IMG/VR virus record: IMGVR_UViG_3300032931_000523
Location: 1-35,452 of that record
Strand: one strand, 5' to 3'
Length of the DNA: 35,452 bases
Origin: a virus
In this document: positions 8,939 to 35,257 of the stretch, piece by piece
Position numbering within the stretch: the stretch's first letter is position 1
Layout: every line of letters starts with the position of its first letter
Notes under the pieces: model-generated
Databases searched by the model: none
Told to the model about the DNA's origin: nothing
What the model saw: the letters and a program-made list of their open reading frames with translations, nothing else
Position numbers and translations under genes: made by a program

Positions 8939-9697
8939 ATGGTAATGATTACGACTCAGGACCCCCGGGTTGTAGTGATAATGGACCAACGAAGGCGGCA
9001 ATTGGAAAACCGGGGGCGTCTTCGTACGTATAGGGCTGCGTCCATCCTCCATAAAGTTCCCCTGGGCGAAAAACTTCCGGACGGGGCGTGGGCGGGGCGG
9101 CGGTGCTTCATCATCGGCGGCGGACCGTCACTCAAGGGCTTTGATTTCTCGCGGCTTAAGGGCGAACGCGTCATCGCCGTCAATAAGGCATTCCTGGACG
9201 TGCCGTTTGCGGACGTCGTGTTTGCCATGGACAGGCCGCTTCTCGACCTCATCATGTTGGGCAAGCTCGGCGAGAATTATAGACGGGCGTTCGAGACGTT
9301 CCCGGGCGTAAAAATTTGGCTTGACCTGTCCGGCTATTCCTATCCCCCGGGCGTCTATTCTCTGCCGTCGGCTGGCGAAATCGGCTGGACGAGGAGCCTT
9401 AGGGAAGGATTATTTCACGGCCAGAACTCCGGTTACGGTGCCCTGAACCTGGCCCTGGTACTGGGCGCGGACCCGATTTATTTGCTCGGCTATGACTGTT
9501 CCCGGGGTCCGGCCGGCGAGAAGAATTATCACGACGGCTATCCCTCCGGGGGCAACCCGGATGCTATGAACATATTTAGGCGGTCTTTAGAGGCCGGGGC
9601 GGCGTTGCTTAACAACGGGCCGCGGATCGTTAACCTCAACCGGGACTCCGCGCTCGGGTGCTTTGAATTCGGCGACAGGGACGGCCCATGGCAATAA
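8939..9697 (+). CDS. MptE/DUF115-like Rossmann protein, sugar-cassette gene 1
   Basis: The 252-residue protein has a glycine-rich loop CFIIGGGPSLKGFDFSRLKG (residues 56-75), followed by RVIAVNKAFLDVPFADVVFAMD and later NSGYGALNLALVLGADPIYL. This is the pattern of the DUF115/MptE-like superfamily, which overlaps with sialyltransferase-like and diphosphotransferase enzymes acting on nucleotide-activated substrates. Residues 1-25 (MVMITTQDPRVVVIMDQRRR and on) are outside the domain and closely match the start of the next protein. The substrate is unknown. It opens a five-gene cassette of sugar-active enzymes. Confidence 0.7.
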   Translation: MVMITTQDPRVVVIMDQRRRQLENRGRLRTYRAASILHKVPLGEKLPDGAWAGRRCFIIGGGPSLKGFDFSRLKGERVIAVNKAFLDVPFADVVFAMDRPLLDLIMLGKLGENYRRAFETFPGVKIWLDLSGYSYPPGVYSLPSAGEIGWTRSLREGLFHGQNSGYGALNLALVLGADPIYLLGYDCSRGPAGEKNYHDGYPSGGNPDAMNIFRRSLEAGAALLNNGPRIVNLNRDSALGCFEFGDRDGPWQ

Positions 9698-10482
9698 TAA
9701 CTACGGGGGACGCTAGGGTTGCGGAGATCATGGCGCAGCGAAGGCAGCAACGAGTGGACGATGTGAATCAAAGGACGTACTACAGGACGTACAGGACGTA
9801 TAGGATGGTAGAGCCGGTTCCCAGCTCTGCGCCCCGACAGAACGGCGCAGCATGGCAGGCAGTAACGTTCTATACGACGGGTACTGGTTATGAACAGGAA
9901 GTAAAGAACCTTATCAAATCCGCGACGGCGCTTAACGTTCCGTTAAAAGTTTACGATTACCCGCCTACCGGAACCTGGCGCGGGAACCTTAACTACAAGA
10001 GTGCGTGTATCCTCCGGGCATTCAACGAGTTCCGGGACAAGGATATCGTGTTTGTCGATGCCGACGCCATCATCCGCCGGAATCCTACATTGTTTGATGA
10101 GCTTTCGGCCAAACGAGAGTACGATATTTCGGCCTGTTTCTTCAAATACGACGCGAAATCCGGCGACGCTGATGAACTCCTCTCCGGGACGCTGTGGATT
10201 AAGAACAATGATACCGGACGTGCGACCGTCCGGCGTTGGCATGAGGTCGGGCTGACAAGGCCCGACGTCCGGCATCAAATGTGTCTTAAGGCCGCGCTGG
10301 AGGACATGCGAAGAGAGGGCATAAGGGTTCGCGTCAACCGTCACTCACTTGCTTATACTTGCATTTTCGACTACCACGCAGCCCGCAACGTGGTTCCCGT
10401 GATCGAGCACTTCCAAGCATCGCGCCGTCTGAGAAAGGACGTTGGCCGGGGCCAGCAGCTTAAGTTTCGGAGGGACCCGTGA
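9688..10482 (+). CDS. GT-A-type glycosyltransferase-like protein, sugar-cassette gene 2
   Basis: The 264-residue protein starts with the shared tag MAIITTGDARVAEIMAQRRQ, then an RTYYRTYRTYR repeat (residues 29-39). The catalytic part has NLNYKSACILRAFNEF and IVFVDADAII, where Asp124-Ala-Asp126 is the metal-binding DxD motif, followed by SGTLWIKNNDTGRATVRRWHE, as in nucleotide-diphospho-sugar transferases. It likely moves a sugar from a nucleotide donor, but donor and acceptor cannot be told. The start overlaps the preceding gene by 10 bases and the stop overlaps the next GTG start. Confidence 0.75.
   Translation: MAIITTGDARVAEIMAQRRQQRVDDVNQRTYYRTYRTYRMVEPVPSSAPRQNGAAWQAVTFYTTGTGYEQEVKNLIKSATALNVPLKVYDYPPTGTWRGNLNYKSACILRAFNEFRDKDIVFVDADAIIRRNPTLFDELSAKREYDISACFFKYDAKSGDADELLSGTLWIKNNDTGRATVRRWHEVGLTRPDVRHQMCLKAALEDMRREGIRVRVNRHSLAYTCIFDYHAARNVVPVIEHFQASRRLRKDVGRGQQLKFRRDP
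9770..9805 (+). repeat. Short tandem AGGACGTA repeats inside sugar-cassette gene 2
   Basis: AGGACGTA is repeated three times in close succession and followed by AGGATGGTA. It encodes the RTYYRTYRTYR run between the N-terminal tag and the catalytic domain. The repeat is in frame and could change in copy number by slippage, lengthening or shortening a basic/tyrosine linker. Confidence 0.5.
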
Positions 10483-11129
10483 TAGCGTCCGTCGTCGTCG
10501 TAACCTATCGTCGTCTGGGGCGAATTCCGGAAATCCTTGCGGCCTGGCTCGGTCAGACGGCTGATGTTTGGCTGTGCGATTGTTCGCTCCACGGTGTCAA
10601 GGTCGTTCCACCGGGTACGCGAATAGCCCGGTTTCGGCCTGATCCCGGGAACAAGGTTCGCCATGCCGTGGCACTTCTGACCTCCGGCGATGTTGTCATC
10701 AAGGCGGACGATGACATCATGCCGCTTCCCGGGCTTGTTGCCGATTTCCTAAAATGGCGTGAGAAGCTTGGACCCTGCATTATGGGCATTCACGGTCGGA
10801 CGTTCCAGGGGCCGGATTACTATCGTAATACGACAATGTACGCGGCCCATATGACCCCCAAGCCCCTAAAGGTTGATTTCGTGGGCATCATCACGTGTGC
10901 CGATAGACAGTACCTACCGATGGATCTTCGGGACTGTGGGACGGACATCGAGGATTTGTATTGGCATAACCATTCCTATCCCAAGGCACCGAAGTACGTC
11001 ATTTCGACAAAAGCGTATAACAACAGCCTTCCGGAAAGCCGCGACGCTGGCAGGCTTTGTGCAAACGCGCCCGGGCGCGCTGCAAGACGGGCGTTTTACA
11101 CAAAGTGCTGGATGGAGCATTACCGATGA
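10479..11129 (+). CDS. Family 2-like glycosyltransferase, sugar-cassette gene 3
   Basis: The 216-residue protein starts with GTG at 10479, served by GGAGGG. It begins ASVVVVTYRRLGRIPEILAAW, the usual beta-strand/helix start of GT2 enzymes, and has DVVIKADDDIMPLPG with the DDD motif at 77-79. A later WHNHSYPKAP segment may be acceptor-side. The length is short for GT2, so it is probably a minimal catalytic domain with no membrane anchor. It is coupled by ATGA-type overlaps on both sides. Confidence 0.72.
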   Translation: MIASVVVVTYRRLGRIPEILAAWLGQTADVWLCDCSLHGVKVVPPGTRIARFRPDPGNKVRHAVALLTSGDVVIKADDDIMPLPGLVADFLKWREKLGPCIMGIHGRTFQGPDYYRNTTMYAAHMTPKPLKVDFVGIITCADRQYLPMDLRDCGTDIEDLYWHNHSYPKAPKYVISTKAYNNSLPESRDAGRLCANAPGRAARRAFYTKCWMEHYR

Positions 11130-11818
11130 CGCGAAAGCTCGTATTCTGGACGGCCCTTAACAGCTACCGGTCGGAGAAGTGCCTCCGGGGGTTGTCCCCC
11201 GGCAGCGCCCATCCGGTTACGACGTCCGCATGGACGGCCCGCCGGGTAGGGCTCTGGCGCAAGTTTACGCTTAACAGCATTCTAGCGCAGGCGGCTGACG
11301 ATTGGCTGTATGTAGTACTTCTGGATCCCGAGTTGAAACGCCTGACCGAGCCCTTGCTCCCGAGACGGGATTCCCGGGTACTCTACTGTTACGAGGACAA
11401 TCCGACGCTTGAAAATCTCCGGGCGTACGATGAGATCGTCCTGGCGCTTATCGACGGTGACGACATGTACAGCCGGTCTGCCGGGCGGCTCATGATGAGG
11501 AGTACGGCGGAATGGATGTTTTTCAAATTAGGCTACGCTTATGAGGTTAGGACGGGAAAGCTTTGGGAGTACGATACCATCGGTACGGGTCCGTTTTTTG
11601 CGCGCCGCGTGGACCCAAAGAAACTGGTTAGATTCGATCGGGACAAGAGACACCCTACGCATAAAACGGTTGCAGAGCAGAAGCCGGAGTGCCTGCCGGC
11701 GGGCCATTTTTGCGTCCTCCTGCACGACATCAACACGTCAAGTCATCCGGGGATGCGCTACGTATTGCGGGACAAACCGGCGGATCCGGGAATTTTAAGA
11801 AAGGAGTTTGGAAGATGA
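11126..11818 (+). CDS. Putative rhamnosyltransferase-like glycosyltransferase, sugar-cassette gene 4
   Basis: Starting at ATG 11126, whose TGA overlap couples it to the previous gene, the product has 230 residues. KFTLNSILAQAADDWLYVVL followed by LALIDGDDMYSRSA (Asp-Gly-Asp-Asp at 110-113) resembles the putative rhamnosyl transferase family (PF11316), with a DxD-like metal motif. The sugar specificity is a guess from family resemblance only. A longer in-frame ATG at 11057 lies inside the preceding gene and lacks a ribosome site. Confidence 0.62.
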   Translation: MTRKLVFWTALNSYRSEKCLRGLSPGSAHPVTTSAWTARRVGLWRKFTLNSILAQAADDWLYVVLLDPELKRLTEPLLPRRDSRVLYCYEDNPTLENLRAYDEIVLALIDGDDMYSRSAGRLMMRSTAEWMFFKLGYAYEVRTGKLWEYDTIGTGPFFARRVDPKKLVRFDRDKRHPTHKTVAEQKPECLPAGHFCVLLHDINTSSHPGMRYVLRDKPADPGILRKEFGR

Positions 11819-12522
11819 ACGTCTGCAAATCTCCTTTACCGTATCTGGACCGTCTTGATTCCCTGCGCCTTCGCAATCGCAACGTTTACGAGCCCTGGGA
11901 GACGGGCATCGTTAACGCCAGGGTCAAGCCCGGGGATTGGTTTATCGACGTCGGGGCACACATCGGGTATTATACGGTCATGGCCGCCAGACTCGTCGGA
12001 CCCTCCGGGACGGTGGTCGCGTTTGAGCCCGGGCCGGAGAACTACGAGATTCTCCGGAAAAACACGGCCGGGCTTGAAAACGTGAAGACGTATTGCATGG
12101 CGGCCTCCTCGTATGCCGGCAATTCAGATTTCTACATCAGCCGGATAAGCTCGGGCGGTAACCGAATTTCGCCCTCCGGGCCGGGCTATGACCGTGTGAC
12201 TATAAGAACGATCCGCCTGGACGACGTCTTCAAGCCGGATTCCTATTCGCATATTAGATGGATGAAGGTCGACACGCAAGGGCATGAATTGTCCGTTCTT
12301 GCCGGGGCCAATGGGATACTGAAAACGTCCCGCAGAATAAGTCTTATAATAGAATACGAGCCGTGTCTCCTGGACCTAAACGGGATAAGGCCGGAGCTGT
12401 TGCTTGAGACCTTGAGGGGACATGGGTTCACGCTCAAATCCTCAAGGACTCACGACTACCGAAAATGCACGGTAGCGAACGGGCGGCACTGCAATCTTTA
12501 TTGCGTTCGACGCGGAGGTTAA
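11815..12522 (+). CDS. FkbM-family SAM methyltransferase, sugar-cassette gene 5
   Basis: The 235-residue protein has the SAM-binding motif I DWFIDVGAHIGYYTVMAARL (residues 41-60), then GTVVAFEPGPENYEILRKN with the acidic loop Glu71, VTIRTIRLDDVF and WMKVDTQGHELSVLAGA, all hallmarks of FkbM methyltransferases. FkbM enzymes O-methylate sugars and related hydroxyls, so it probably caps or modifies the glycan made by the preceding enzymes. AAGGAG lies 8 bases upstream of the ATG and the stop of gene 4 overlaps it. It ends the cassette, one base before the neck genes. Confidence 0.88.
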   Translation: MNVCKSPLPYLDRLDSLRLRNRNVYEPWETGIVNARVKPGDWFIDVGAHIGYYTVMAARLVGPSGTVVAFEPGPENYEILRKNTAGLENVKTYCMAASSYAGNSDFYISRISSGGNRISPSGPGYDRVTIRTIRLDDVFKPDSYSHIRWMKVDTQGHELSVLAGANGILKTSRRISLIIEYEPCLLDLNGIRPELLLETLRGHGFTLKSSRTHDYRKCTVANGRHCNLYCVRRGG

Positions 12523-24328: not shown

Positions 24329-26005
24329 CTATTTAGGCGGCAGTATGTAATGTCCGTCCTCGTCCCTGCTTAAGCCCATTTTCTTTATTACCCTGTGTAC
24401 CGCCGCCAGGCTGCACCCGGCTCCCTCCGCAATCGCCCTCATGGACTTGGGGGTGCCGCTCATGATCGCCTCCTCTATACGGTCGGCAACGGAGGCACAG
24501 CTCTCGTCGACGTCCACCCCAAAGCTCCAGTCGGTTATGTTAAATTTTAGGCGAATTCGTTTTGGGTTTTCGCAGCTCTTAAAATGCCTTATGACGATGT
24601 TCCCCCTCTCGTCCCCCTCGGGAAGACGCCAGCCCCATTCCAGCCATGCGTTGAGAAATTGCGAACCCCATATGCTTGAGCGGTCCTCGGAGGAACTTCC
24701 GGCTACGGTCGTATGATGAGCGATGGCAAAGCTGGAATGGTACTCATCGCGTAGCCTCTTTAGGGACAACATGGCCTGTGCGCCGAGGGCCATGTATTCC
24801 TTGGCCGAGATGGCCGAATACAGCGGGTCGATTACGACCAGCCTGGGGCGGATCTCCGCGATCTTTGCCCTGAACCTAGCCAGGCAGCCCGTGTCCTCCA
24901 GGTTGAGTTCTCGGTCTTCGTGCCAGTAGATGGGTACTGCGTCTAGCTCCTGTACAAATCCACAATCCAATTCATGGGTTCCGTCCTCTTCCCCCGGCGC
25001 CGACGCGTTGAACATTCGTGCCAGCCGGCTTTGCAACATCCACCACGGGTCCTCCTGCTGAACAAAGAGCACCGACCCCCGGCCCGTTACCGGATAGCGT
25101 CCCAGGAACGGTTTTCCCGTGCTTACGGCGAAGGCCAGGGCGACCAGAAGCCAAGTCTTGTAAGACCCGGGCGGCGCTACGATCAGCCCGCAGGAGGCTT
25201 CTGGTAGCCATTCGGCTATGGTCCATCGTGAGTCGTCCTCGCCGTACCGGCGAAGCATTTCCCTGGTTGTAGTAGTCTTGAACTCCTTTTGTTCCGTCCT
25301 TCCCGGCTTCCCCGCCTCACGCTCGGCTATGGAGCGGACTATCTTCTCTACCTGGGCGTCAGCCAGGGGCGGCTTACAGTGTGCCCGGTTTACGGCCAGC
25401 ATGACGGACAGACACTCCGCGGCCGGCATCCCGACCTGTAGCAGGCGCCCGGTACGGCGCGTTAGTTCCTGATCCCTCGCCCCCTCGCCTATATCCGTGG
25501 CCCATTCCCTGCCCTCCAGCCGCCGGCCCGTCCCGGAGGACCGTACCAGGGCCAGGAGCCCAAGGGAGGGCAAGGAGGGTACTACGCCGGGGTTCTCCCA
25601 GGTGTATTGCCCGTACTCCCCCCGACTCGGGGGGGCCACGACCATCCCGCCGTCACTCCGAACGTCTACGTTCTTAACTACCCCAACGCAATTCGGCACC
25701 CCTGGAACATACTCAAAATACAAATGGAAGCCGCCACGTTGCGTCCTGGCCGTCAGCGTAGGCGGAATAGTGCCGAGGGCTCTAAGTCCCTCTTCAGAGT
25801 CAACGTCTATAACGATAATGTTGGAGACTCGGCCAGTGGCGATGCCAATACCGGCCTTAGGCCATTGAGTCCACCATGCCCTTATTTCCTCCTCTGTGGC
25901 TCTATGTTGTTGGTATTCGGTCCAGGACGAAAGTAGTGGTCTCTTATTCATTACAGGCAAGACTGACCACCCGCGCCGTGCGTACTTGAGGGCGTGTTCT
26001 AACAC
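24329..26005 (-). CDS. Primase-polymerase fused to RepA-type AAA ATPase
   Basis: The GTG at 26005 (GGAGG 5 bases upstream, overlapping the HNH gene stop) starts 558 residues at LEHALKYARRGWSVLPV, the usual Prim-Pol start; the longer ATG at 26092 overlaps HNH coding. The Prim-Pol core has VIDVD (Asp67, Asp69) and GGFHLYF (His94). A RepA/AAA_25-like ATPase follows: GLIVAPPGSYKT (Walker A, about 273-284), RLVVIDPLYS (Walker B, Asp393). The C-terminal MRAIAEGAGCSLAAVHRVIK is a helix-turn-helix. It likely primes and unwinds at the phage origin. It is the last gene of the leftward unit. Cyanophage S-2L, a base-Z phage, also uses a Prim-Pol. Confidence 0.85.
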   Translation of the reverse strand: MLEHALKYARRGWSVLPVMNKRPLLSSWTEYQQHRATEEEIRAWWTQWPKAGIGIATGRVSNIIVIDVDSEEGLRALGTIPPTLTARTQRGGFHLYFEYVPGVPNCVGVVKNVDVRSDGGMVVAPPSRGEYGQYTWENPGVVPSLPSLGLLALVRSSGTGRRLEGREWATDIGEGARDQELTRRTGRLLQVGMPAAECLSVMLAVNRAHCKPPLADAQVEKIVRSIAEREAGKPGRTEQKEFKTTTTREMLRRYGEDDSRWTIAEWLPEASCGLIVAPPGSYKTWLLVALAFAVSTGKPFLGRYPVTGRGSVLFVQQEDPWWMLQSRLARMFNASAPGEEDGTHELDCGFVQELDAVPIYWHEDRELNLEDTGCLARFRAKIAEIRPRLVVIDPLYSAISAKEYMALGAQAMLSLKRLRDEYHSSFAIAHHTTVAGSSSEDRSSIWGSQFLNAWLEWGWRLPEGDERGNIVIRHFKSCENPKRIRLKFNITDWSFGVDVDESCASVADRIEEAIMSGTPKSMRAIAEGAGCSLAAVHRVIKKMGLSRDEDGHYILPPK

Positions 26006-26385
26006 CCGCTCCTCCGTAGGTAATCGATGGCCGCTTCTAAGAGAGCAGGTGAGTCTTGAAAACACCCTAGCCCTTTGTTGCATCCGTGGCACAGGAGCCC
26101 GCGGATTTTACCAGTGGCATGATTGTGGTCTACAGCTAGCCGATATCCACCGATATTCGGCCTCCTACAGATAACGCAGACATTTCCCTGTTGGGCCGAA
26201 AGGGTAAGGATCTCCTGAGTAGTCAATCCGTATTTTTGCCTGTCCCGACGCTCCGCCCTACCGCGCGGGTTGGCTCTGTGGCGAGTTTTAGAGCGTAATC
26301 GTTCTTTCTCTAGGTGATCTCTATAGTGGGCTCTATGCCGGGCGTTCACCTTTTCTCGAACTTTTTCCGGGTCTTTATACGGCAT
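25999..26385 (-). CDS. Endonuclease VII-like HNH protein
   Basis: The 128-residue protein has a basic helical N-terminus (residues 8-50), then the zinc cysteines Cys70/Cys73 (NVCVICRR), the LAVDHNHATGKIRGLLCHGC core with Asp86-His87-Asn88-His89, and Cys99/Cys102, then NKGLGCFQDSP. This is the recombination endonuclease VII (T4 gp49-like) family, which resolves branched DNA before packaging. AAGGG precedes the ATG. Its stop overlaps the primase-polymerase GTG start. A free homing HNH endonuclease is the less likely alternative. Confidence 0.85.
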   Translation of the reverse strand: MPYKDPEKVREKVNARHRAHYRDHLEKERLRSKTRHRANPRGRAERRDRQKYGLTTQEILTLSAQQGNVCVICRRPNIGGYRLAVDHNHATGKIRGLLCHGCNKGLGCFQDSPALLEAAIDYLRRSGC

Positions 26386-26415: not shown

Positions 26416-27498
26416 CTAATCACGCCATATGTTATCGTGCTCGCCAGGTCCCGTTCTTATCAGGATTACGGGTACGTCGACCGTCTTCTCGATCTGACCG
26501 ATCAGCGCCCGGGTGTCCGGGTGCAGATCGTTCCACTGAGTGACCCGGTAGTTGCCCCTACGGTGATAGTCCGCAAAGGTTACCGCCAGGGAGTCGTAAT
26601 CGTTCAGCAGATGGGACTTGTACAATTCCTCCAGCGAAAAATCAAATAGTCGCTCCTCCTCCGCCTTCTCCGGCCGGAGGCTAGCGTTCCAACGGGTAGA
26701 ATCCCCCTGTAGCCGTCTGTGGTGGGGAAGCCGCAACGATGTTCGGGCCTCTACCTCGTCGAACGACACCTCCCTGCCAGCCGACGGCCCGCTCGGGCCG
26801 GGGACGCGCATCAGTACCAGGCGAAATACGCCCACCACCCGGCGGATTCTTCTGTAACTAAACCCAAACTCGCCCGCGATGGCCGGTACCGTTACGTCCT
26901 TTGCCGTACAGTACGGGTAATAACCGTGATTCAGGGACAGCAACGCTCCTTGGCTTCCCTCTACCAGGGCGGGGCCGCTAACTTCCGCTATAAACTCCGG
27001 TACGGAGCGCAGGTTCCTGCCCAGGGCCTGTCGCAGCATTTCACAGTCGCCGACCAACTTTGTATCGGGGCGACGACGTACTTTCTCGGCTATGGCCGCC
27101 CCGACGCCCCATCCCGTCGTCCCCCTCGCATTCCCAACCTCCAGGTTCTCAACAGCGTGCTCCGGCCTTAGCCACATGGCGTGGGGGTCAACGATAATGC
27201 GGGCCAAGGGGAGCCCCAGATGGGTCGCCTCGCGGATAAGGTGTTCCGGTATGAAACAATGCCCGGCCCCCAGTACGGCCGTAATGTCGGGCCGGTAGCA
27301 GGAGGCTGACGGCAGTACGCGGGCGCAAAAATCACAAGCTTGGTGAATAAACCGGTGTTCCGCATTCTGTGCGCCCACTCGCCCGGTCCATCGATACGGT
27401 TCTTTTTCCGCCGTGGCCCGGTCGGCCAGAAGCTTGGCTACCATTCCCTTGCCCTCGTCTCCAAATTGTCCTCCTACAAGAATGTCGATGTTTTTCAC
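26416..27498 (-). CDS. purZ: PurZ-like short adenylosuccinate synthetase
   Basis: The 360-residue protein uses a GTG start (AAAGGAG 5 bases upstream) overlapping the previous stop. It has the adenylosuccinate-synthetase signature VGGQFGDEGKGMVAKLL (residues 8-24), NAEH (His48), GTTGWGVGAA (127-135) and VEGSQGALLSLNHGYYPYCT (179-198). It is far shorter than cellular PurA (about 430). The GTP-specifying KLD motif of PurA is absent, with TFAD (307-310) and YHRRGN in its place. Both fit PurZ, which makes N6-succino-2-aminodeoxyadenylate from dGMP for base Z. Asp14, equivalent to the catalytic Asp13 of E. coli PurA, is kept, so substrate choice (IMP or dGMP) is not settled by sequence. Confidence 0.78.
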   Translation of the reverse strand: MKNIDILVGGQFGDEGKGMVAKLLADRATAEKEPYRWTGRVGAQNAEHRFIHQACDFCARVLPSASCYRPDITAVLGAGHCFIPEHLIREATHLGLPLARIIVDPHAMWLRPEHAVENLEVGNARGTTGWGVGAAIAEKVRRRPDTKLVGDCEMLRQALGRNLRSVPEFIAEVSGPALVEGSQGALLSLNHGYYPYCTAKDVTVPAIAGEFGFSYRRIRRVVGVFRLVLMRVPGPSGPSAGREVSFDEVEARTSLRLPHHRRLQGDSTRWNASLRPEKAEEERLFDFSLEELYKSHLLNDYDSLAVTFADYHRRGNYRVTQWNDLHPDTRALIGQIEKTVDVPVILIRTGPGEHDNIWRD

Positions 27499-27689
27499 TT
27501 AGTCTCCTTTGTTAAAATTCCGTTGCCGTCCGGCTTGTCCAGTCCGTCCAGCCTGTCTAGTATGGCGAGATAATCGGTAAAGGCTTCGACGCGGAGTGCG
27601 TCCCTGTCGGAGAAGAACCCGTGCTCGTGCTGCCATTCTGCCTTCTTTAATTCAGCCTCCGTCCACTTCCGTAATTCTTTTGTGTCCAT
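27495..27689 (-). CDS. Small hypothetical protein between purZ and the DNA polymerase
   Basis: The 64-residue protein has a GGGAG ribosome site 7 bases upstream and a GTGA overlap into purZ. It is helical and acidic, with KELRKWTEAELKKAEWQHEH, SDRDALRVEAFTDYLAIL and a polar end. It has no MazG or HD motifs, so it is not an obvious MazZ or DatZ. Its tight position within the polymerase-purZ block makes it a candidate accessory of the same pathway. Confidence 0.6.
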   Translation of the reverse strand: MDTKELRKWTEAELKKAEWQHEHGFFSDRDALRVEAFTDYLAILDRLDGLDKPDGNGILTKETK

Positions 27690-27703
27690 GTCGTTTCTCC
27701 CAA

Positions 27704-29503
27704 TTAAAGTTGTAACGTCAACTGACGGGCCTTGCCGGGCGCCCCGCCGCCGAGGTCCGGGGTAGTCGGCTTCCCGTCCTTATCAAACGTAATGGGCTTC
27801 ATAACGTCCCTCCCCCATGACCGGCCCATCTTCCCCTCGGCCACTATGGGCACGTCAAACTCAAAATCTTCCATGGCCTGTTTGATCGTTGCGGCCCACT
27901 CGGCCTCCTCGCCCTCGGGAATCTCGAACAGTACTTCGTCGTGGACCTGCAATATTTGATGTGCTGCGGTACCGCTCAGGAGTCCGTACAACCTCGTCAG
28001 CGCCACCCTCATCATCTCGGCCACGCCGCCCTGGATGAGGTTGGACATGGCCTTGTGCGTCTCGTCCTCTTCTCGGTAATGGCGTAGGCGCCCGGTCCAT
28101 ATGGGTATTCTGCGATCCCGGTCGGCGATGCGCTGGGCCGTGCCGTAAAGCTGGCGGACCTTGGGCATTAATTGATGGTGGCGATTGAGGTATTCTCTGG
28201 CCCTGGCTACGGGGATGCCAAGCTCCTCAGACAGGGTTGCGGCCCCTACTCCGTAGACTGACCCGAAGTTGATGCGCTTTGCTGAGTCCCTTGGGATGTT
28301 TAGCTTAACGGCGGTCTCGCCGTGGATATCCTTGCCCTGCCTGAAGGCGTCCAGCAGGAATTCATCCTTTGCGTAATGTGCCAGGAGCCGTAACTCCGCT
28401 TGATTCCAGTCCCAACTCATGAGCGCATAACCGGGGGGCGCTATCACCAGGTCACGGATCTTGTGGACGTCGCTCCCCTTCGGCAGGGCCTGTAAGTTCG
28501 GTTCACTACAGGATAGCCGGCCCGAGATGGTACCGATCAGGTTTAGGTTCGGATGAACACGATGGTTACCGTCCATCGAATCCAGGAATCCGCGGTAAAA
28601 GGTACCGGCTGCCTTCCCCCAGGACCGGCTCTTTACCAACAGCGGGGCGACAGGGTGCTTGCACGCGGCCATAGCCTTTTTGTCGGTAGCTTGCTGTCCT
28701 AATATTTTACGCAATTGCGGTACGGAGTCCGGGTTGAAGTCGTATCCTACAACGGCCCTCATTTGCCCGTAGATTTCGGCTCGATGCTTGTTCGCTTCGG
28801 CCAGGTTCTTCTCGCAGCCTACCGGGTCGATCAATACGCCCCGTCGTTCCATGGCTATAATCGCCATCAGATACTCATTGGCCTCGGGCCACAGGCGGGA
28901 GATGCCCTGCTCTTCAAGGTTCTTGGTGTACAGTTCGGCCAGCCGCCAGGCCAGGCGGACGTCCTGCTCGGCGTACGGGGCTACCTCCTCGGGCGTTAGG
29001 TACTGCATGCCGCTCTTGTCGAGGCCCCGGCTCTTTAGCTTCTGCAGCAGACTCTTCTCGGCCTGGGATGCGTCCGAGCCTAGGTATTTGTCCCCAAGAC
29101 GTTTTAGGGCAAAGCTCATTTCGTTCTCGTTGGCCAGATGGGCTGCCAGCATTATGTCTACCAACCGGTTGTAGACGACTAAGTGCTCGGCCTCGGTAAA
29201 ATGGACATCGAACTTTAGGTTGAACCCGACTAGGGTCCGGCCCGGGTCGGCCAAGAACGGCGCTAGACGGTACAGGGCTGAGATCGGTAAGTTGTGACCG
29301 GCCCGATGCCTGAACGGTATGTAGAACGACTCGCCGGCGGCGCCCTCACTGGTCTCGTCCGGCATGAGCAGGGCTATGCCTACAAGTCTGTCTTGCTTGA
29401 ACGGGTCGAGGCCGGTAGTCTCTAGGTCGTAGACGGTAACATCCGGACCGGCTCGTAATTTGTTGAGCAGCTTCCCGTATTCGGCTTCGGTCGAAACTAA
29501 CAT
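27704..29503 (-). CDS. Family A DNA polymerase with 3'-5' exonuclease (DpoZ candidate)
   Basis: The 599-residue protein lacks the 5'-3' nuclease of bacterial Pol I. The exonuclease part has TVYDLETTGLDP (Asp26, Glu28), GFNLKFDVHF and YAEQDVRLAW. The polymerase part has motif A ALMSWDWNQAELRLLAHY (Trp where Tyr is usual), motif B SAKRINFGSVYGVG and motif C QVHDEVLFEIPEG. It should be the replicative polymerase. In base-Z phages such as phiVC8 and SH-Ab 15497, the family A polymerase DpoZ sits beside purZ, so this is a DpoZ candidate by neighbourhood; preference for dZTP cannot be read from sequence. AAAGGAGG precedes the ATG. Confidence 0.88.
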   Translation of the reverse strand: MLVSTEAEYGKLLNKLRAGPDVTVYDLETTGLDPFKQDRLVGIALLMPDETSEGAAGESFYIPFRHRAGHNLPISALYRLAPFLADPGRTLVGFNLKFDVHFTEAEHLVVYNRLVDIMLAAHLANENEMSFALKRLGDKYLGSDASQAEKSLLQKLKSRGLDKSGMQYLTPEEVAPYAEQDVRLAWRLAELYTKNLEEQGISRLWPEANEYLMAIIAMERRGVLIDPVGCEKNLAEANKHRAEIYGQMRAVVGYDFNPDSVPQLRKILGQQATDKKAMAACKHPVAPLLVKSRSWGKAAGTFYRGFLDSMDGNHRVHPNLNLIGTISGRLSCSEPNLQALPKGSDVHKIRDLVIAPPGYALMSWDWNQAELRLLAHYAKDEFLLDAFRQGKDIHGETAVKLNIPRDSAKRINFGSVYGVGAATLSEELGIPVARAREYLNRHHQLMPKVRQLYGTAQRIADRDRRIPIWTGRLRHYREEDETHKAMSNLIQGGVAEMMRVALTRLYGLLSGTAAHQILQVHDEVLFEIPEGEEAEWAATIKQAMEDFEFDVPIVAEGKMGRSWGRDVMKPITFDKDGKPTTPDLGGGAPGKARQLTLQL

Positions 29504-29659: not shown

Positions 29660-30238
29660 CTAGAATGGCGTCGTATCGCTCTTGGCGAACTTGATGCTAC
29701 TTTCGTCCGGCGGGTGTACCCTGAGTACCTTGTGGTTGAGTCGTCCCTCGTAGGTGTCGTGAATGACCTCAATGATGCAGGGCCGGCCTAGGATGTCCTT
29801 CTTGGTAAACCTGGCGATGGAACCCGCAGCTTTGATGCCGACAGCGTCCAGGGTCTGAGCTACCTTCCAGCGGGCTTGTGGGAGCAGGCTCGTCCAATGG
29901 CGGATCTCTATGTCTTTCGAGTTACCGGCGGTAATACGGAATTGCCATACGTATTGCGGGTTTTTGCTGCTGCTCTCGGACTTCTCGAAATCGATTACTT
30001 TCGCGTGGTGGAGCCCCGGCTCCGCCATGGGAAAACCGCTCTCGACTTCGGTAAAATCCTCCTCGAATTCCACGCCGCCGACGGCCTGCGGCAGGTTCGC
30101 GGGCTTGTTCGACTTTGTCTCGCTACCGGTGTCCGGCGGCAAGCCTACGGGCCTGTTCGACCCCGGCTTGTCCTTGACGGATGGGCCGGCCTTTTTCCCG
30201 GCCTCGCCCGAGAACGGGATTTGGGGTTGTTTTGGCAT
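29660..30238 (-). CDS. DUF669/SSB-like ssDNA-binding protein
   Basis: The 192-residue protein begins with a disordered Pro/Lys/Ser/Gly-rich region (about 60 residues), then a beta-rich core: FEEDFTEVESGFPMAEPGLHHAKV, YVWQFRITAGNSKDIEIRHW, ILGRPCIIEVIHDTYEGRLN. The C-terminus ends SDTTPF, like the tip of bacterial SSB proteins that recruits partners. DUF669-type proteins stand next to Sak4-like recombinases in phages, as here. It probably coats ssDNA during replication and annealing. AAAGGAG precedes the ATG. Confidence 0.66.
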   Translation of the reverse strand: MPKQPQIPFSGEAGKKAGPSVKDKPGSNRPVGLPPDTGSETKSNKPANLPQAVGGVEFEEDFTEVESGFPMAEPGLHHAKVIDFEKSESSSKNPQYVWQFRITAGNSKDIEIRHWTSLLPQARWKVAQTLDAVGIKAAGSIARFTKKDILGRPCIIEVIHDTYEGRLNHKVLRVHPPDESSIKFAKSDTTPF

Positions 30239-30247
30239 GTTGCTCCT

Positions 30248-31096
30248 TTATTTTTCCAAGATTCGGTCTATGATGACCGGTATCGACGGGTCCTCGATCA
30301 TGAGCCCCAGGCGCTGCCCCGGGCTGCGGTCCTTCGCGACCCATTTGTCGTAGGGGCGGCACAGCAAACGGCGGCTGGTCTCCTGGGTTTCGGCGTCGGT
30401 GTCAACGAACATGTAGCCGATGACGTCCATGTAGCCCATGACGGCGCTACGAAGCTTCGGGGTCAGCATGGGGTGAGAACTCTCTACCTTGTCCTTGTCC
30501 TGTGATGTAGCGTCGTGGCATGAGAAGAACACGTGCATGGGCAGATCGCGGAACTGACGAACGACGCGCCGGAGTTGCTGGGTACTGGTACCGTAATCGT
30601 CCTGCCAAATGTCGTCTAGTGATTCTCGCTTTGCCCCGGACCCGCTAGACTTACCGACTAGTTTCTTGACAATGTTTTCCAGGTTGACCATCTGTAACTC
30701 GGACAGCGAGTCGATGCCGACCGACTTATAGGGATGGTCGCCCTTGGCCAGGTACCAAAAAATGCCCTCCAAATGGTCGAATCCCTTGAGGTCCACTACG
30801 TCCGGGGCGACCTTTAGGCCGAGTACGCTGGCCCCGGCCACGCTTAGCATACCGCCCTCTATGTTGATGATCAGGATCGGCGCCGTGGATTCGTGCAGGT
30901 CGGCCGTGGCCAACAGGGACGTCTTGCCGACGCCCGGCGGCCCGTAGATGAGCATTTTCAGCTTGTAGGACTCGATGCGGGGCTTATAAATCCTGATGTC
31001 CGGCAGGCCGGTCGGCGCTGCGGCCAGCTCCTCGTCCGCCCCGACCGCCGTGCCCTCAGGCTCCGGGTTCGGTCTCGGGCTCTTTTTCGTATTCAT
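30248..31096 (-). CDS. Sak4-like RecA-fold ATPase (AAA_24), recombinase
   Basis: The 282-residue protein has a disordered start, then KMLIYGPPGVGKTSLLATA (Walker A, residues 52-59), ILIINIEGGMLSV, VGIDSLSEL (Walker B, Asp129) and DDYGTSTQQLRRVVRQFRDL. This is the phage AAA_24 / Sak4 pattern. Sak4 proteins are single-strand annealing recombinases that work with SSB, and the SSB-like gene is directly downstream. The start has GAGGAGG and lies 41 bases inside the nuclease gene. Confidence 0.82.
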   Translation of the reverse strand: MNTKKSPRPNPEPEGTAVGADEELAAAPTGLPDIRIYKPRIESYKLKMLIYGPPGVGKTSLLATADLHESTAPILIINIEGGMLSVAGASVLGLKVAPDVVDLKGFDHLEGIFWYLAKGDHPYKSVGIDSLSELQMVNLENIVKKLVGKSSGSGAKRESLDDIWQDDYGTSTQQLRRVVRQFRDLPMHVFFSCHDATSQDKDKVESSHPMLTPKLRSAVMGYMDVIGYMFVDTDAETQETSRRLLCRPYDKWVAKDRSPGQRLGLMIEDPSIPVIIDRILEK

Positions 31097-32060
31097 TGTT
31101 TTCCTCCTCTCTAGATTTTTTGGCCTCGAATTGGTCCGCGATGATGTAGGCGACGTCCCTTCCCTTCACGGACTCCAGGCACAGCTCGCGATAAGCACAC
31201 GGGCCGCAAGTAATAAAGGACTCGCTGCGGTAAATGTGCTTTTTCTTGCGTCGCATGTCCCAGACGCGATGCTCCATGTCTCGGGTAAACAACCGTACCT
31301 CGACCGGCGGCCGGTAGATATGGCTGCGTTGGAAGAATTTGAAGCCGGCTAGCCGAGCCTCCATGTCCGCGTAGTTTGCCGGGTCCAGCCCCCGCGAAAC
31401 GGCGGACTCCCTGTATGTCGGCCAATCGGTGTAAATTACGGCCCTGGACAGGCTACCGTCCTTATTGGCCTTGGGCTCGGCCGGGATACGGGCTAACAGT
31501 TGGTTGTAGATCGTACCCACTACCGGATAACCCAGACGGTGGGCGGCGTATTGGTAGACGCCGACCTGCCCGTCCAAGTCCAGGTCCTCCTCGGCACGGA
31601 GGCGTTGTTGCGGAAACTTATGTTCCATCAGCCAAAGTTTACCGTCGCGATCACGCACCAGGGCGTCCCAGTACCCGACGAGCCGGGCCTTGATGCCGCG
31701 GACCGGTATTTCAAACTTGTGCTCTACCAGCACCGGCTCGAAACTGTCGGGATAAGCTTCTAGGTACCGGGGCATAACGCCCATGATCAGGGCCGCTATC
31801 CCCCGGAGTTCGGCCTCCTCCTCCTCGAACAACGCCCTCTTACCAAACTCCAAGTTGACCCAGAGTTCGACGGCCGCCTGCCAGCTCTTACCGCGGAGCG
31901 CGGCGGCTACGGCGGCGTGGCCGCAGGAGCCCACGGATGGAGCCCGGCGGGTTCGCTTGGGGACGATGCCTACCTCGTAGGCCCAGCGCCACCGAGCCCG
32001 GCAGGCACACCAGGCGGCTATCTCGCTCCAGGATACGTTCCTGTTCTTCGTATTGCCCAT
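31056..32060 (-). CDS. PD-(D/E)XK nuclease with Fe-S-type cysteines (Cas4/AddB-like)
   Basis: The ATG at 32060 is used (AAAGGAGG six bases upstream), giving 334 residues. The nuclease core is ARLVGYWDALVRDRDGKLWL then MEHKF: Asp132, Glu146 and Lys148 form the D...ExK site. QVGVYQYAA (about 165-173) is the RecB-type QxxxY motif. Cysteines Cys18/Cys20 near the start and Cys285, Cys288, Cys294 (CGPCAYRELC) could bind a 4Fe-4S cluster as in Cas4 and AddB. It likely makes or trims recombination ends for the Sak4-like annealer. Confidence 0.82.
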   Translation of the reverse strand: MGNTKNRNVSWSEIAAWCACRARWRWAYEVGIVPKRTRRAPSVGSCGHAAVAAALRGKSWQAAVELWVNLEFGKRALFEEEEAELRGIAALIMGVMPRYLEAYPDSFEPVLVEHKFEIPVRGIKARLVGYWDALVRDRDGKLWLMEHKFPQQRLRAEEDLDLDGQVGVYQYAAHRLGYPVVGTIYNQLLARIPAEPKANKDGSLSRAVIYTDWPTYRESAVSRGLDPANYADMEARLAGFKFFQRSHIYRPPVEVRLFTRDMEHRVWDMRRKKKHIYRSESFITCGPCAYRELCLESVKGRDVAYIIADQFEAKKSREEENNEYEKEPETEPGA

Positions 32061-32088
32061 TACATGCCTCCTTTCCATGGCAGTGTTC

Positions 32089-32118
32089 ATTCTATCATCG
32101 AATGGCAAATCCCGTCAA
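32089..32118 (-). promoter_or_regulatory. Possible internal promoter before the nuclease gene
   Basis: On the minus strand, TTGACG (32118-32113) and TAGAAT (32094-32089) are separated by 18 bases, each with one mismatch to consensus. It lies in the 54-base gap between the Cys-rich protein and the nuclease, about 30 bases before the nuclease ATG. It could boost the recombination-polymerase-purZ block independently of the promoter at 588-616. Confidence 0.45.
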
Positions 32119-34737: not shown

Positions 34738-35027
34738 GCTTTTCTCCTTCTATTGTAATTAGAACGCGCAAGAGTTTTCTTTAGTCTTTTCCACCGGCCC
34801 CGGAGTGTCCGGGACAGGAGTTCCTTGTAAATCAGCTCCTGGGCCTGTCTGACCTCGTAGATCTCCTGCTTCAGTAGGCTGTTCACTATCTCCTTGAGTT
34901 CCCCCGCCAGCTTGATGAATATTTCTATCCGCTGGTTCAGGATGACCTCGATTGCCGCCGCCCGCTTTTCGAGGATGTCTATCCGCTGATTCTTAATCGA
35001 GACGTTAAGACGTTGTTCGTGCCCCAT
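34734..35027 (-). CDS. Coiled-coil hypothetical protein
   Basis: The 97-residue protein is almost one continuous helix (KNQRIDILEKRAAAIEVILN and on) with heptad-like Ile/Leu spacing and a very basic end (WKRLKKTLARSNYNRRRKA). The helical part suggests an oligomer; the basic end suggests nucleic-acid or membrane contact. The start shares TAATG with the preceding stop, and the end overlaps the holin candidate start by 4 bases. No family is recognised. Confidence 0.6.
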   Translation of the reverse strand: MGHEQRLNVSIKNQRIDILEKRAAAIEVILNQRIEIFIKLAGELKEIVNSLLKQEIYEVRQAQELIYKELLSRTLRGRWKRLKKTLARSNYNRRRKA

Positions 35028-35257
35028 TATAGTTTGATCTCCTCAAGGAACCTTCTAACCTCGGCCAGACATCCCTTATTCCAGGCGGTGCCGCTGCAGG
35101 GGAAAAACGCGTACTGCCGCCAGCGGCCGTACCATCGGATTTGCCCTAGCTTAAAATCCCGCCCGTATTTGCTTTCGCACGACTTCGGGAAGACGTCGTA
35201 GACGTTCGTCCTGGGGAGCGTGGCCACTTTTAGAAACTCTAGGTATTTATAGTCCAT
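35027..35257 (-). CDS. Small conserved-looking protein with WYGRWRQYAFFP motif
   Basis: The 76-residue protein contains LGQIRWYGRWRQYAFFPCSG followed by WNKGCLAEVRRFLEEI. The aromatic WYGRWRxYAFFP plus a CL..V..FL end recurs in small phage proteins of unknown function. It is compact, with no membrane segment. Translation is coupled to its neighbours by TGATG and TAATG overlaps. The function is unknown. Confidence 0.6.
   Translation of the reverse strand: MDYKYLEFLKVATLPRTNVYDVFPKSCESKYGRDFKLGQIRWYGRWRQYAFFPCSGTAWNKGCLAEVRRFLEEIKL

Follow-up and report, generated by a model that had tools for sequence, protein, structure and literature searches.

Does the PurZ-like gene on the viral record IMGVR_UViG_3300032931_000523 belong to a phage that replaces adenine with 2-aminoadenine (base Z), and if so, by which route? 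The record comprises 35,452 bases, and "the window" below means the whole of it. An earlier note on this DNA had placed the gene next to a family A DNA polymerase gene, with a 64-residue open reading frame (ORF) between them, and Pfam and PHROG matches confirm this arrangement. The synthetase matches PF00709 at 98 bits (cut-off 27) and PHROG_1211, "2-aminooxy adenylosuccinate synthetase", at 137 bits. Our comparisons place it in an undescribed third branch of the PurZ lineage, the product of which may be Z, reached by a new route, or another modified letter. The gene and its diagnostic sites, located by alignment, are as follows.

26416 to 27498, minus strand: PurZ-lineage synthetase of the third clade, 360 residues, GTG start
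27445 to 27462, minus strand: GDEGKG motif, residues 13–18; Asp14 corresponds to Asp13 of E. coli PurA
27352 to 27366, minus strand: NAEHR motif, residues 45–49, with Gly40Glu and Thr42Arg; His41 is kept
26785 to 26808, minus strand: RVPGPSGP loop, residues 231–238, a PurZ/PurZ0-type insertion next to the deoxyribose
26650 to 26655, minus strand: Glu282-Arg283, with Glu in place of Arg305 of PurA and PurZ

Relatives of the synthetase were sought in IMG/VR and in bacterial and archaeal genomes. Full-length or nearly full-length relatives with 34–85% identity were found on 14 more viral contigs and on two contigs from metagenome-assembled genomes (MAGs), L112 and L113, and L006 carries an additional partial one. 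A repeat viral scan based on a broader alignment added no clade member, and INPHARED phages contain no relative of at least 33% identity, only ones below it. A maximum-likelihood tree of 62 proteins groups the window protein and 16 relatives (15 viral and 2 MAG contigs together) in one clade with support of 100/99. This clade of 17 is sister to the group of PurZ, PurZ0 and the protein of phage BpsS-140 (100/97), so that the window synthetase lies outside the PurZ and PurZ0 clade, and all of them join archaeal PurA (100/100); PurZ and PurZ0 are long branches here, and some attraction is possible. Under the approximately unbiased test, a tree that groups the clade with archaeal PurA is rejected (p 0.007), as is one that pairs PurZ with archaeal PurA and leaves the clade outside (p 0.01). 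The contigs L113 and L112 were binned into bacterial MAGs (Syntrophomonadaceae, Spirochaetaceae), and the synthetase genes on them have phage-type neighbours (PrimPol, PolA); they are probably phage contigs that hint at the host.

The AlphaFold2 model of the window synthetase (pLDDT 86.6, pTM 0.89) aligns with PurA and PurZ structures at Z scores of 28–41. The nearest fold is Pyrococcus horikoshii PurA (Z 41.3), followed by other PurA, PurZ (38.5) and PurZ0 (38.3), the gap between classes being small. The dN/dS values of 0.12/1.48 against G001 and 0.18/1.79 against G003 indicate that the synthetase is under strong purifying selection.

The active site sets the clade apart from the three known classes. 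Residues 13 to 333 are numbered here as in the E. coli PurA literature, and the counts exclude pv27, a divergent jumbo-phage protein on a very long branch. The clade keeps Asp13, Lys16, Asn38 (16/17), His41, Gln224 and Asp333. Position 13 is Asp in all 16 members that cover the site, the window included, whereas Ser replaces it in 147/147 phage PurZ and PurZ0 sequences (PMC12884076). Two substitutions, Gly40Glu and Thr42Arg, which turn NAGHT into NAEHR, are invariant (17/17) and found only in the clade. In the aspartate loop, Arg305 is replaced by Glu in 17/17 members, while Arg is present in the 44 other sequences, among them 10/10 of PurZ, PurZ0 and BpsS140. Position 333 is Asp throughout the clade (17/17), as in PurZ0 and PurA, and Asn or Gln in ATP-using PurZ. 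On the S-2L structure, the equivalents of residues 40–42 bind the triphosphate tail, and that of Arg305 (R280) adjoins the position of Asp13.

Other features are common to the clade and PurZ/PurZ0: the RVxGxSGP insertion (RVPGPSGP in the window, xSGP across the clade), the YPYC motif and the loss of Arg303. According to PMC8342488, the insertion drives Val241 of S-2L toward the 2' position, and in PurA, Arg303 contacts O2' and the free aspartate. By residue and placement tests, then, the window protein is neither PurZ nor PurZ0 nor PurA at the level of sequence. As a description of the lineage, the earlier note's "PurZ-like enzyme" agrees with the tree; PurZ strictly defined is not supported, given the retained Asp13 and the altered Arg305 and NAGHT.

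Could the enzyme be a phage PurA that raises the supply of AMP and dATP from IMP, its active site drifting neutrally? The retained Asp13 and GTP-type Asp333 would fit such a role, as would the archaeal PurA as nearest solved fold (Z 41.3 vs 38.5). However, Arg303 is gone and Arg305 has become Glu in 17/17 members, and both the loop of PurZ type and the association with genes for dATP destruction (below) speak against it. Since the active-site changes are invariant in the clade, they are not drift, and we regard this explanation as improbable. Less probable again is a role other than adenylosuccinate chemistry, such as hydrolysing or sensing (d)GTP; S-2L PurZ reportedly has a dATPase side activity. 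The charge changes do coincide exactly with the sites for the amine and the phosphate tail, in favour of such a role, but the core catalytic residues Lys16, His41, Gln224 and Asp13 are all kept.

The genes around the synthetase gene in the window bear on whether this is an ordinary base-Z phage.

27495 to 27689, minus strand: 64-residue ORF, not conserved, its stop overlapping the GTG start codon of the synthetase
27704 to 29503, minus strand: non-DpoZ family A DNA polymerase with a 3'-5' exonuclease domain, 599 residues (PF00476, 226 bits; PF01612, 53 bits)
25999 to 26385, minus strand: endonuclease VII-like gene (PF02945, 83 bits)
24329 to 26092, minus strand: PrimPol/AAA replication protein (PF09250, 123 bits; PF13481)
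29660 to 32108, minus strand: rest of the replication module by Pfam and PHROG profile matches, namely SSB-like (29660–30238), Sak4-like (30248–31096) and PD-(D/E)XK exonuclease (31056–32108) genes

The polymerase had been put forward as a DpoZ candidate. DpoZ is marked by Phe for Tyr on helix O and by a phiVC8-type insertion (PMC8599892), and the Phe is present in all seven DpoZ compared (four phiVC8-like, three Wayne-like). The helix O of the window enzyme reads KRINFGSVYG, with the Tyr kept, and the insertion is absent from it; we therefore rejected a DpoZ identity. Except in G002, the polymerases of the relatives have the helix-O Tyr as well.

The 64-residue protein, proposed as the first candidate for a new pathway member, fares no better. 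It has no Pfam or PHROG match, and tblastn found no homologue in any contig of the clade. In G001 (whose synthetase is 84% identical), L006 and G003, the gap between the polymerase and synthetase genes is non-coding and about 45–80 nucleotides long. The protein, considered as a new dATPase, was therefore rejected in the role of a conserved pathway member; the ORF may still be a real small gene of the window phage. By eye, the gaps of G001, L006 and G003 contain a TTGACA-type element. No sigma-70-like site was found directly upstream of the window synthetase gene on the coding strand.

In the window, neither DatZ nor MazZ was found. Pfam models gave no matches for MazG (PF03819), YfbR/HD (PF12917, PF13023), dUTPase, DCD, NDT or DUF5664 in the record, nor did hidden Markov models built from five DatZ, three MazZ and four Dut proteins of known Z-phages, and no homologue of the DUF5664/550 proteins from those phages was found; a PF04447 search ran without a positive control and does not count toward the absence. 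DatZ-type HD domains were likewise found in none of the 15 clade virus records searched, MazG was found in none of seven of those, and PurB (adenylosuccinate lyase; the query was the Ghobes protein) was found in no clade contig.

An ordinary base-Z phage with PurZ and DpoZ, in which the 64-residue protein or another new dATPase takes the place of DatZ, would account for a PurZ-lineage enzyme adjoining PolA where DatZ is not found. It would leave unaccounted for residues 13, 40, 42 and 305 (Asp, Glu, Arg and Glu), unlike those of every PurZ and PurZ0 compared, a polymerase without the DpoZ marks and an ORF that was found nowhere else. We consider it unlikely, if slightly less so than the phage PurA.

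All these absences from the window are weak evidence, because the record is an open fragment without an end repeat. As its relative G005, closed by a 114-base repeat, measures 43.8 kb and G003 measures 45.9 kb, part of the phage's genome is probably missing. No contigs bearing the window's right-end gene (35027–35257) were found from which to recover that part. Are the absences, then, mere assembly gaps, the complete phage carrying the usual helper genes? The open record allows this, and the early regions of relatives do hold Dut, NDT, DUF5664 or DCD genes. However, helper genes are also lacking from the closed G005 and from G003, which is still open but covers the tail genes through the terminase and has a seemingly complete early region, and gaps would leave the changed active site unexplained. 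This explanation is about as improbable as a role in hydrolysing or sensing (d)GTP.

The relatives nevertheless connect the clade with dATP removal, and helper genes are linked to the synthetase in most of the deeper clade. Outside the window's subclade, nine members have enough flanking sequence to be informative. An NDT-family gene adjoins the synthetase gene or lies within about 1 kb of it in seven of the nine (G006, G011, G012, G013, G014, G015 and L113), a dUTPase gene occurs in three (G010, G013 and G015), and a DUF5664 gene lies elsewhere on the contig in two (G006 and G014; 70–74 bits). At least one of the three is thus present in 8/9, the closed G005 having none. The NDT model, which was built partly from the clade, matched 0/143 control loci, taken from the surroundings of viral or archaeal PurA genes outside the clade; Pfam alone detects five of the NDT genes.

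These NDT proteins resemble DmtZ, which is set apart by Tyr6, Asp12, Pro57, Asn77 and Glu103 (PMC12884076). Pro57, Asn77 and Glu103 are kept in 7/7, Asp12 in six (not G013) and Tyr6 in six (not G014). Among phage records, the G012 protein matches only three, all DmtZ-DutZ genes of Streptomyces PurZ0 phages. Moreover, the NDT-Dut fusion of G015, itself closed by a 123-base repeat, aligns over 98–100% with the DmtZ-DutZ of PurZ0 phages. In G009, a member of the window's subclade, a dCTP-deaminase-type gene (71.6 bits), which had first appeared as a weak Dut match, lies immediately upstream of the synthetase gene; another member, G008, has a weak NDT-like gene immediately downstream. Gene-order comparison shows the endonuclease VII-like gene of the window in the slot held by a DmtZ-like gene in several relatives. 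The suggestion that dATP is removed by another protein therefore fits the relatives, with their DmtZ-, DutZ- and DUF5664-like genes, while no such gene was found in the window.

Further genes accompany the synthetase in individual relatives. In G007, a 167-residue protein encoded directly downstream (L209:5165-5668) appears NDT-like by eye (CGSTRF ... GGYIGSSTASEIEYA) and has no Pfam match. A small DNA-binding protein of MazE/AbrB type follows the synthetase in six members (G002, G006, G011, G012, G014 and L113; L200:3904-4152, L019:12531-12755 and relatives) and is possibly an operon regulator.

In PurA and PurZ, the purine nucleotide is first phosphorylated at O6, after which an amine displaces the phosphate. 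The window enzyme would likewise phosphorylate a purine 2'-deoxyribonucleoside monophosphate at O6, with GTP as the donor; the deoxynucleotide is favoured by the loop of PurZ type and the missing Arg303, and GTP by Asp333. Enzymes acting on a purine that lacks the 2-amino group have Asp13, and the substrate base would be that of dGMP or dIMP. The displacement by an amine would yield a 6-amino-type deoxypurine nucleotide. Arg305Glu would take positive charge from the aspartate loop, so either the carboxylates would be held otherwise, with Arg42 as a candidate, or the amine would not be aspartate. Host enzymes would complete the product to the triphosphate, and the phage polymerase would incorporate it. 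From the dATP-clearing DmtZ/DutZ/DUF5664-type genes of the relatives we infer that it would replace adenine in the DNA.

Our preferred reading is thus a third-clade PurZ-lineage synthetase in an uncharacterised purine-substitution pathway, the product of which replaces some or all adenine, and we give it a probability of roughly 0.52. Should it hold, base Z made by a remodelled site would be slightly favoured, and another N6-substituted deoxypurine, with an amine other than aspartate, would follow closely. That the clade makes an undescribed base, an N6-substituted adenine or 2-aminoadenine deoxynucleotide formed with a non-aspartate amine while DmtZ/DutZ-type enzymes clear dATP, is doubtful, though less so than the alternatives above.

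Several points weigh against adenine replacement. Asp13 is the PurA state, and the window polymerase, to judge from its sequence, is without any Z-selectivity mark; such a polymerase is compatible with Z, as S-2L replaces adenine using a PrimPol that is not Z-selective (PMC8599892). The dATP-removal genes (NDT, Dut, DUF5664) were found in none of the window, G001, G002, G003 and the closed G005. MT-A70-type adenine methyltransferase genes near the synthetase in L112, G011 and G012 (L112:1428-2039, L198:8458-9018, L200:4632-5186) suggest that an N6-amino purine is still available, and they would be compatible with such a purine in the DNA. The DmtZ/DutZ/DUF5664 linkage could in part reflect common descent of the replication module, which the window has in common with G001, G003, G005, G006, G011 and G014; G010, G013 and G015 carry a different one. 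Finally, the clade members are known from contigs, with no isolate among them.

Among the known systems closest to the clade are the PurZ0 phages (Gordonia Ghobes, Arthrobacter Wayne/TattModd, Streptomyces Hiyaa), which carry PurZ0, DutZ, DmtZ and DUF5664. The two have in common the lineage, GTP-type Asp333, the loop (RVxGNSGP in PurZ0) and the loss of Arg303, and relatives of the window have DmtZ-, DutZ- and DUF5664-like genes, one of them a DmtZ-DutZ fusion. However, PurZ0 has Ser13, NAGHT/V and Arg305 next to a DpoZ with helix-O Phe, whereas the clade has Asp13, NAEHR and Glu305 with an ordinary PolA, and the window record shows no helper gene. The PurZ phages (S-2L, phiVC8, ZP6 and the SH-Ab-type Acinetobacter phages), with PurZ, DatZ and MazZ/DUF550, are alike in lineage, fold, SGP-type loop and YPYC; their Ser13, Asn/Gln333 for an ATP/dATP donor and Arg305 are all absent from the clade, and their DatZ and MazZ were not found in it. 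Archaeal PurA (P. horikoshii PH0438) is the nearest solved fold and has Asp13 and Asp333, but it lacks the SGP insertion, contains Arg303, Arg305 and NAGHT, and uses IMP and aspartate. The PurA-like protein of Bacillus phage vB_BpsS-140 (L020) belongs to the same PurZ superclade, yet it has Ser13 and Arg305, and its long branch falls with PurZ in the tree; no DatZ or MazZ is annotated within 6 kb of its gene.

Two observations concern the remainder of the window. Eleven copies of AGTGAAC lie at 713–911, in a 528-base non-coding gap between the divergent early and late genes; the whole window has 14 copies against 2.5 expected, and none of 100 shuffles exceeded 10. The cluster is possibly a set of iterons or an operator array. 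Among the structural genes, at 8939–12522, are genes for an MptE-like protein, two glycosyltransferase-like proteins and an FkbM-type methyltransferase; relatives of the MptE-like gene also occur in G002, G003 and G005.

We found no description of the clade in the literature, most subscription journals lying outside the coverage of the search, so that an earlier mention elsewhere is possible. The widest survey (PMC12884076) names only PurZ and PurZ0, together with four basal archaeal sequences that carry Ser or Gly, and in the literature found, the Z-making synthetases of phages fall into just two branches, each having Ser13. A further branch in which Asp13 persists and the amine and phosphate-tail sites are remodelled bears on how PurZ evolved from archaeal PurA, and it may be a sign of a purine not yet known from DNA. 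Furthermore, DmtZ-/DutZ-type genes accompanying two different synthetase clades would add to the evidence for convergent dATP removal.

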